From contig CABZFF010000005.1 of NCBI GenBank assembly GCA_902524945.1, forward strand, positions 1-64,000: a DNA stretch of 64,000 nt. Reading direction: 5' to 3'. The notes beneath the pieces were generated by a model. The model was given only the letters and a program-made list of their open reading frames with translations. It made no database searches and had not been told where the DNA came from. How positions within the stretch are numbered: position 1 is the stretch's first letter; each line of letters opens with the position of its first letter. This document shows positions 21,100 to 24,056 of the stretch, piece by piece. A program made the position numbers and the translations under genes. The DNA is from an uncultured Pelagibacteraceae bacterium (GTDB lineage: Bacteria > Pseudomonadota > Alphaproteobacteria > Pelagibacterales > Pelagibacteraceae).

Positions 21100-22229
21100 T
21101 GAAAAAAAAAATAGCAATAATTGGTGCTGGTATAGCAGGTTTAACTCTTGCTAATCTGATAAAAAAAAATTCCGACCATGAATTTATGTTATATGAAAAA
21201 CAAGAAAGTTTATCTCTTGACGAAGGATATGGAATTCAACTCTCCACAAATAGTGTAAAAATTTTAAATATTATCGGGTTTAGTAAAATTGATAATAATA
21301 AAATTTTTCACCCAACAGGAGTTGATTTTTATAATATTCAAAATAAAAAAATATGTGAATTAGATCTAACTCAATTTAATACAAAAGAAAATAAGTATAC
21401 TACTTTAAAAAGAACAACACTGATTGAATTTTTGAAGGACGACGTATACACACAACATTTAAGATTTGGAAAAAAAATTAAAGAAGTTTCTGAATTAAAG
21501 GGAAAAGTTCTTATAAAATTTGATGATAATACTAATGATCTTGTAGACTTAGTTGTTGGCGCAGATGGTATTTTTTCTAATACCAGATCTTTTTTCGAAA
21601 AGAAAAAAAATGAGCCAAAATTTAAAAAAGCTGTAGCTGTAAGAACAATACTTAAAACAAAATCTGAACTAGAGATTAATGAGGAAAAGATAAGTCTCTT
21701 AATGGGAAAAAACTGTCATATTGTGATTTACCCATTAAACAAGAATAAAGAAATTAATCTTGTTTGTATAATAAGAGAAAAAAAATATGATCCAGAAAAC
21801 ATTAAGTCATTAATAAATAAAGTTGTTACACAGAATTCTCGTTTTGAAAAAGTTTTTAATGGAGACTTAAAATCTTGGCCCTTATATTTTACTCCTCAAA
21901 TACTTCCATCGACAAATAACAAAGTTTTTTATATTGGAGATGCATTCAATGGTTTTTTACCAACTTTAGCTCAAGGGGCAGGACAATCTATAGAAAGTGC
22001 TTATGAATTATTTAATTTAATTCAAGAAAACAAAGCAGATATTCAGAATGCTTATTTTCAAGAGAGATCAAAAAGAGCGAAAATTGTGAGAAGGAGATCG
22101 AATATTAATTTTTTTGCTTTTCATTTTTCAAGCTCAATTATGCAAGCATTAAGAAACTTTTTCATGAAGTTTCTTGTAAAAAGAAAAAATTTTATTAGTT
22201 CTTATTTAGGAACAATTTATAATAACTAA
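21099..22229 (+). CDS. FAD-dependent monooxygenase/hydroxylase (UbiH/salicylate hydroxylase-like)
   Basis: IAIIGAGIAGLTLANLIKK; LVVGADGIFSNTR; FYIGDAFNGFLPTLAQGAGQSIESAYEL. Confidence 0.85.
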   Translation: MKKKIAIIGAGIAGLTLANLIKKNSDHEFMLYEKQESLSLDEGYGIQLSTNSVKILNIIGFSKIDNNKIFHPTGVDFYNIQNKKICELDLTQFNTKENKYTTLKRTTLIEFLKDDVYTQHLRFGKKIKEVSELKGKVLIKFDDNTNDLVDLVVGADGIFSNTRSFFEKKKNEPKFKKAVAVRTILKTKSELEINEEKISLLMGKNCHIVIYPLNKNKEINLVCIIREKKYDPENIKSLINKVVTQNSRFEKVFNGDLKSWPLYFTPQILPSTNNKVFYIGDAFNGFLPTLAQGAGQSIESAYELFNLIQENKADIQNAYFQERSKRAKIVRRRSNINFFAFHFSSSIMQALRNFFMKFLVKRKNFISSYLGTIYNN

Positions 22230-22337: not shown

Positions 22338-23408
22338 CTAATTAATATTTGAAACTAATCTTTGTCTAAGGCTATCAATCAAAACTATCGAATTCCCAAT
22401 TTTGTAATACCAATATGTCCATCCATTGTAACTTTCAGTGCCGTTTATTTCTGCAGCTATTTTATGAATTGAACCCTCAGATTTTTTGTATTTGATGCTT
22501 CCATCTACCATTATTTTAGCATTAATTTTTTTCTTAGAGTCAAATAAAGAAGTTCCTGGTTTGATTAAACCTAATTCAATAAGCGAACCAAAAGGTATTC
22601 TTGGTTTTGTTTTATTATTTTCAATAGTATCCAAATAATTATCTTCAATGATTTTTGTTTGACTAATTCTATCTAATGCTGCCTTAAAATATTTTTTGTC
22701 TCTCTCTATCCCATAATAATTTCTACCTAATTTTTTAGATACGACAGCAGTAGTTCCTGTACCTAAGAAAGGATCAAACACAGTGTCACCTTTATTAGTA
22801 GTTGCTAATATAATTCTATGAAGAAGAGCCTCTGGCTTTTGCGTAGAATGTATTTTTTTTCCATTTTTCTTTAGCCTCTCTTTTCCACTACAAATAGGCA
22901 ATGTCCAGTCTGATCTCATCTGTAAATCATCGTTTAAACATTTAAGAGATTGATAATTAAAAGTATATTTTGACTTTTTACTTTTTGATGCCCAAATAAG
23001 AGTCTCGTGAGCATTAGTAAATCTTGTTCCCCTGAAATTTGGCATTGGATTATTTTTCCTCCAAATAACATCGTTAAGCAACCAATAACCTAAATTTTGT
23101 AAGTGGTATCCCAATCGAAAAATATTATGATACGAACCAATTACCCAAATAGATCCGTTATCTTTTAAAATTCTCTTGCATTCTTTTAACCAAGATTCGC
23201 AAAATTCATCGTAATGTTTGAAACTATTAAATTGATCCCATTTATCGGTAACACTATTTACTTTGCTTGAATCTGGACGGGTTAATTTTTCACCAATCTG
23301 CATGTTGTAAGGTGGATCAGCAAAAACTAAATCAAAAGTTTTGTCCGGAATTTTTTTTAATTCCTCTAAACAATCACCATTAATAACTTTGTTAGAAAAT
23401 TTTAACAT
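22338..23408 (-). CDS. ccrM: CcrM-type adenine-specific DNA methyltransferase (GANTC)
   Basis: FADPPYNMQIG, DPFLGTGTTAVVSKKLGRNYYGIE, C-terminal RAMA-like domain; size and layout match CcrM. Confidence 0.93.
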   Translation of the reverse strand: MLKFSNKVINGDCLEELKKIPDKTFDLVFADPPYNMQIGEKLTRPDSSKVNSVTDKWDQFNSFKHYDEFCESWLKECKRILKDNGSIWVIGSYHNIFRLGYHLQNLGYWLLNDVIWRKNNPMPNFRGTRFTNAHETLIWASKSKKSKYTFNYQSLKCLNDDLQMRSDWTLPICSGKERLKKNGKKIHSTQKPEALLHRIILATTNKGDTVFDPFLGTGTTAVVSKKLGRNYYGIERDKKYFKAALDRISQTKIIEDNYLDTIENNKTKPRIPFGSLIELGLIKPGTSLFDSKKKINAKIMVDGSIKYKKSEGSIHKIAAEINGTESYNGWTYWYYKIGNSIVLIDSLRQRLVSNIN

Positions 23409-23414
23409 TTTCTA

Positions 23415-23486
23415 GATTCAACTTTAAATTGAATCAAGGGTCAAACGATTTTAGAAAAAAAATGAGTCTTTTTGTGTTTGAGATTC
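23415..23486 (-). promoter_or_regulatory. GANTC-rich regulatory region upstream of ccrM, with predicted promoter
   Basis: GANTC at 23415-23419, 23431-23435, 23464-23468, 23482-23486; minus-strand TTGACC (23444-23439) - 17 bp - TTGAAT (23421-23416). Confidence 0.55.
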
Positions 23487-24056
23487 TTAACTCGACAACA
23501 TCTTGTGTATCGGTTTAAAACCTTTTCTATGGTGTGATGTTACACCAAATTTTTTTAAACCCTCAAGATGAGCTTTAGTTCCATAGCCAAAATTTCTTTC
23601 CCATTCATAATTAGAATACTCTTCAGACAGTTTTATCATAAATCTATCTCGATAAACTTTTGCAATTATTGAAGCTGCACTTATAACTTTAACTTTTTCA
23701 TCTCCATTTATAATTGTTTTGTAATTTTTGAGGCCTTCAGGCGCAAAATTTCCGTCTATTAAAGTAAAACCAGGTTTGACTTTAAGCCTTTCAATTGCCC
23801 TTCTCATGGAAAGCAGTGATGCTTGTAAAATATTTAAATTTAAAATTTCTTCCACAGATGCAATACCTATTGCAAAATGGGAATTATCTTTAATATGCTT
23901 TGAGATTTCCACTCTTTTTTTAAATGATATTTTCTTTGAATCTTTTAAAAGTTTTAAGTTTATACCTTTTTTAAAAACAACCGCAGCTGAAACAACAGGG
24001 CCCGCAAGACACCCTCTACCAACTTCATCGACTCCAGCTGTAATTAAATCTTTCAA
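23487..24056 (-). CDS. rnhB: ribonuclease HII
   Basis: AGVDEVGRGCLAGPVVSAAVV; IDGNFAPEG; ASIIAKVYRDR. Confidence 0.97.
   Translation of the reverse strand: MKDLITAGVDEVGRGCLAGPVVSAAVVFKKGINLKLLKDSKKISFKKRVEISKHIKDNSHFAIGIASVEEILNLNILQASLLSMRRAIERLKVKPGFTLIDGNFAPEGLKNYKTIINGDEKVKVISAASIIAKVYRDRFMIKLSEEYSNYEWERNFGYGTKAHLEGLKKFGVTSHHRKGFKPIHKMLSS

Follow-up and report, generated by a model that had tools for sequence, protein, structure and literature searches.

Results

The locus lies in a window of 64,000 nucleotides, the whole stretch of DNA analysed, from the genome (about 1 Mb) of a SAR11 bacterium (Pelagibacteraceae; assembly GCA_902524945.1, contig CABZFF010000005.1), and centres on the gap between rnhB and ccrM. 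The ccrM product is a beta-class adenine methyltransferase with a DPPY motif and a C-terminal RAMA domain that matches Caulobacter CcrM (6pbd) over residues 6–353 (E = 6e-138); on sequence grounds the gene is a CcrM orthologue. The features are listed below, with changes counted on a tree of CcrM from 93 relatives.

22338–23408, minus strand: ccrM, GANTC adenine methyltransferase of 356 amino acids (N6_N4_Mtase and RAMA domains)
23408–23409, minus strand: predicted transcription start, at or adjoining the A of the ATG (leaderless), from the distance between TTGAC and start codon
23415–23419, minus strand: GANTC site 2 (GAATC), overlapping the −10 element; intact in 83/93; outer C with 9 changes
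23416–23422, minus strand: right core GTTGAAT, containing the −10 hexamer TTGAAT (23421–23416); 0 changes; 17-bp spacer as in the class-wide form
23426–23434, minus strand: left core ATTCAATTT; 0–1 changes per column
23431–23435, minus strand: GANTC site 1 (GATTC), in the spacer at about −26 to −22; intact in 83/93; outer G with 9 changes
23439–23444, minus strand: −35 element TTGACC (23444–23439); TTGAC in all 93 genus promoters, as the search pattern demanded, and recurring class-wide
23449–23461, minus strand: A/T tracts TTTT..AAA 5′ of the −35, UP-element-like; TTTT and AAA columns 97–100% conserved
23464–23468, minus strand: third GANTC (GACTC); a GANTC within that stretch in 52/93 relatives
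23482–23486, minus strand: fourth GANTC (GAATC), immediately following the rnhB stop codon; retained in some relatives
23487–24056, minus strand: rnhB

Just ahead of the ccrM start codon, positions 23415–23435 read GATTCAA-CTTTAAA-TTGAATC, which is exactly, in sequence and coordinates, the perfect inverted repeat with one GANTC per arm that the first-pass annotation had placed there; the ATG begins at 23408, 7 nt past the −10 hexamer. Taken as an inverted repeat alone the element is not significant: perfect 7+7 repeats number 19 in the A+T-rich window at a loop of 7 nt, which is chance level, and 364 at loops of 0–20. It is, however, the sole one of the 19 that bears GANTC in both arms. In the window GANTC is depleted, with 106 occurrences against 181 expected from shuffled sequence (about 0.6-fold), in agreement with the depletion published for CcrM-bearing Alphaproteobacteria (PMC3973325), and the rnhB–ccrM gap contains four within 72 bp (P of about 0.02 for a comparable cluster at any place in the window). 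Separately, a terminator-like stem followed by a T run lies on the plus strand at 23530–23547, within and antisense to rnhB.

Conservation within the genus

Are the arms conserved in relatives, as the first-pass annotation had asked? We collected ccrM upstream regions from whole-genome and named-genome collections and aligned them on TTGAC (first T numbered 1), which yielded 93 distinct promoters, one of them from the sister genus g9, and across this set the arms are conserved. The search pattern demanded TTGAC, TTCAA (or TACAA) and TTGAA, and no genus locus with a readable flank was clearly without TTGAC; columns 11, 17–19, 23 and 29, which were not demanded, are as fixed as those that were. 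ATTCAATTT (offsets 11–19) and GTTGAAT (23–29) are invariant in the 93 promoters save for one sequence at offset 13, so that on the CcrM tree the core columns show 0 changes and offset 13 changes once, whereas free columns change 20–30 times (22–30 for columns such as 7, 9, −2, 31 and 33). The outer bases that complete each GANTC, G10 and C30, are the least conserved of the palindrome with 9 changes each, yet steadier than the free columns. Both GANTC sites are intact in 75 of the promoters, one in 16 and none in 2, and the losses at the two sites look independent. The repeat alone is at chance level, but its conservation across relatives, the decisive evidence, shows that the element is functional. 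As read from these alignments, the promoter element is under very strong selection and GANTC completeness under weaker but real selection; the palindrome core is better kept than complete GANTC sites, so that something other than methylation must also constrain the sequence, and the core, so judged, holds information beyond methylation.

A few variants of the region are recorded here for completeness. Positions 23423–23424 (offsets 21–22) switch between A and G 16–18 times across relatives and carry a purine in all but one case. In a subclade (L019, L023, L025–L028, L077, L092, L102, L106, L109, L110, L119 and L120) TTTTTCACGTAAAA immediately precedes the −35. In L101, TTCACGTAAAATC abuts the ccrM start codon instead, and a promoter of the type of genus g6 is combined with a genus-like CcrM that is 82% identical to the window protein; this locus is possibly an intermediate or a recombinant.

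A probable sigma-70 promoter with a leaderless geometry

The first-pass annotation had read TTGACC-N17-TTGAAT on the minus strand as a sigma-70 promoter, and the conserved −35 and −10 positions of the 93 promoters bear this out, as do the coordinates for its placing of one GANTC over the −10 and the other in the spacer. TTGACC is near the TTGACA consensus, the spacer is 17 bp and position 6 of the −10 is T; position 2, by contrast, is T in 93/93 rather than the usual A, which stands there in 80% of the class-wide set. An alternative −10 within the coding start (TGTTAAAAT) was discarded, as it is not conserved and many relatives read MSKF there. The A/T tracts upstream of the −35 resemble, and may serve as, an UP element. 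Together these features make the element almost certainly the conserved core sigma-70 promoter of ccrM. With TTGACC as −35 and TTGAAT as −10, the first transcribed base would be the A of the ATG or its neighbour and the mRNA would be leaderless, as had been proposed with a very short leader as the alternative; TTGAC precedes the start codon by 35–36 nt in 91/93 promoters, which fits this, and we regard a leaderless ccrM mRNA as very probable.

The promoter across the order and class

Across the order the −35 and 17-bp frame are kept while the GANTC positions vary, and in several genera a GANTC touches or overlaps the −10 in different phases. In genera g2 and g4 of family f2 the promoter reads TTGACC-TC-GATTC-TATTTT-GAATC-ATATT or nearly so, with the last base of the second GANTC serving as the first −10 base and with TTGAC at 35–36 nt from the ATG; in g6 the second GANTC is shifted by one base and TTGAC lies at 41–44 nt. 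A single promoter GANTC is present in g7, and none in g5 and part of g8. Palindrome-like motifs also occur at other positions: ATTCAA-N7-TTGA-like over the −35 in g6 (L122–L139, L160–L179), and ATTCTA-N7-TTGAA adjoining the start codon in g8 and g5 (L140–L146 comprise g8, g7 and g5).

The class-wide set comprised 77 genomes, nearly all from other families. TTGAC-N1-6-GANTC occurs upstream of ccrM in 42/77 families against 0.3 in shuffles, TTGAC lies 35–38 nt before the start codon in 28/77 against 0.2, and the 120 nt upstream of ccrM hold 183 GANTC where the remainder of those loci predicts 17.7, a roughly tenfold enrichment. At the position given by a 17-bp spacer the profile is C.72, A.80 and T.86 at −10 bases 1, 2 and 6, and the second GANTC, which starts at offset 20 in 25/50 cases, usually ends on the first −10 base. 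This form, TTGACg-N2-GANTC-N6-GANTC, shares with the window genus the −35, the 17-bp spacer, the GANTC pair inside the promoter and often the distance of 35–38 nt to the start codon. The window genus differs in that its second GANTC is displaced 6 nt downstream into the −10, whose second base is thereby not the usual A, and in that its sites are spaced by N11 instead of N6 and make a perfect palindrome.

Discussion

What could two target sites of the enzyme do inside the promoter of its own gene? We propose that the CcrM sites built into the ccrM promoter, one in the spacer and one overlapping the −10, would make ccrM expression self-limiting. Passage of the replication fork would leave both sites hemimethylated and the promoter would fire, after which newly made CcrM would remethylate the sites and initiation would be damped; the m6A marks would fall at about −9 of the non-template strand and, in the template strand, opposite T−7. 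Computed from coordinates, the distance of ccrM from parB is roughly 0.30–0.56 of the replichore in ten closed genomes of the family, and the gene's replication time is therefore well defined. We infer that both sites are methylated, and infer likewise the sign of the effect. On balance we favour a sigma-70 promoter with methylation-switched self-limitation; in keeping with this, methylation sensitivity of the promoter is rather likely and autoregulation of ccrM plausible, while the notion that full methylation turns the promoter off is tentative. Against a methylation switch stand the 18/93 promoters that lack one or both sites and the low conservation of the GANTC-completing bases relative to the rest of the palindrome.

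The missing A at position 2 of the −10 means that the promoter probably depends on a helper, for which GcrA, a sigma-70 cofactor that reads m6A, is the most likely candidate. In Caulobacter, GcrA contacts domain 2 of sigma and promotes open-complex formation at m6A promoters (PMC7403470), and a GANTC located between −10 and −35 is associated with cell-cycle timing (PMC4287350). The window genome encodes GcrA and the ccrM promoter has GANTC in its −10/−35 region, two marks of a GcrA promoter; the extended GcrA motif YGAKTCK is matched by neither TGATTCA nor TGAATCT on either strand. A simple GcrA model is further opposed by the lack of association between GcrA presence and a GANTC-type promoter in the 77 families (p = 0.44) and by the SAR11 genera without promoter GANTC (g5 and part of g8), which keep both GcrA and CcrM. 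An involvement of GcrA may be entertained at a little short of even weight.

Three other explanations merit consideration. The palindrome GATTCAA-N7-TTGAATC could be the operator of a protein that binds DNA as a dimer, probably a repressor sitting over the spacer and −10, with GANTC secondary. Such a protein would account for core columns steadier than the GANTC-completing bases, for the fixed N of each GANTC and for an invariant spacer half that a bare promoter does not need, and genus g6 has a similar ATTCAAT-N5-GTTGA over its −35. Yet a regulon of the palindrome had to be rejected: TTCAAT-N4-RG-TTGA is essentially confined to ccrM in eight genomes of the genus (1 match in seven, 4 in one), so that no regulon is visible, and the class-wide form retains the GANTC pair and promoter frame but not the palindrome. 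We consider the operator unlikely, and give still less credence to an ordinary constitutive sigma-70 promoter in which GANTC sites are inherited leftovers and methylation is without effect. A promoter alone does explain TTGAC, the 17-bp spacing and the −10, and some genera work without GANTC sites; the invariant spacer is not expected from it, however, nor are 9 changes at the outer GANTC bases where free columns have 20–30, nor the class-wide enrichment of GANTC upstream of ccrM.

An RNA hairpin that forms just before the ccrM start in read-through transcripts from rnhB and controls translation would suit the predicted stability of the repeat (−8.3 kcal/mol, z −2.7), and the purine-only positions 21–22 could pair with U18/U19. 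It was rejected because the 93 promoters contain no covariation: compensatory changes are absent, pair 10–30 is kept in 83/93 against 82.9 in shuffles, and the outer pairs fall within the range of their shuffles. Moreover, other promoter forms retain the promoter frame and not the repeat, which, given the predicted start, would not be transcribed. The hairpin is highly improbable, and the methylation-switched sigma-70 promoter remains the reading that we prefer.

How does this promoter compare with those described before? In Pelagibacter GANTC is the methylated motif, with 3477/3482 motifs fully methylated in strain NP1 (PMC9516812), and Brilli et al. found no ctrA orthologue (PMC2877005). The Caulobacter GcrA/CcrM promoters mipZ, podJ and ctrA P1 are likewise sigma-70 promoters with GANTC in or near the −10/−35 (PMC3667746, PMC4287350), in a system where GcrA and CcrM are both encoded, as in the window genome; the window promoter differs from them in that it lacks YGAKTCK, serves the methylase's own gene and is a putative GcrA target. 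The Caulobacter ccrM promoter has nearby GANTC sites as well and is CtrA-activated, according to PMC3667746 and PMC3973325, the latter of which, citing Stephens 1995, calls ccrM probably methylation-controlled. Here, in contrast, TTGAC forms the −35 and the CtrA box TTAA-N7-TTAA is absent between rnhB and ccrM, its nearest exact matches being at 21856 and 25018. A 2021 study predicts ccrM as a core GcrA target in 13 alphaproteobacterial orders, lost in Caulobacterales, by scoring extended GANTC motifs at any position between −200 and +100 relative to the start (PMC7987155). That study already points to conserved GANTC upstream of ccrM beyond Caulobacterales, and in the text consulted it does not report promoter phase, leaderless geometry or the SAR11 palindrome. 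In the open-licence literature we found no description of GANTC sites relative to −35/−10, of the leaderless geometry or of the SAR11 variant, which is weak evidence of absence. New in this work are the precise layout of the promoter, its leaderless geometry and the variant seen in SAR11; ccrM as a GcrA target had been predicted before.

The comparison suggests that the TTGAC/GANTC form, often with a leaderless geometry, is the commoner ccrM promoter in the class, that the CtrA-driven Caulobacter promoter may not be representative, and that related switches across Alphaproteobacteria could represent an old self-regulating loop. More speculatively, the ancestral ccrM promoter of most Alphaproteobacteria might have been a leaderless sigma-70 promoter with two CcrM sites in the spacer and at the −10 edge, a self-contained methylation thermostat without CtrA and, in some lineages, without GcrA, and in SAR11, where a site lies inside the −10, m6A itself might set melting; we hold this possible rather than probable. 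SAR11 bacteria rank with the most abundant cells of the ocean and are reported to lack ctrA, and the timing of their DNA methylation is at stake. A compact promoter whose spacer and −10 carry target sites of the enzyme it expresses is, moreover, a directly testable circuit.

Finally, within the genome of the window TTGAC-GANTC-GANTC occurs only at ccrM, and the other places with TTGAC-N20-GANTC, a tRNA-Val gene and one spot inside a coding region, were set aside. In several other Alphaproteobacteria TTGAC-GANTC-GTGATTC lies 29–40 nt before the start codon of a DivIC/FtsB-like cell-division gene (L287, L288, L297, L300 and L302, near position 1500), with PF04977 found in both of the cases tested.
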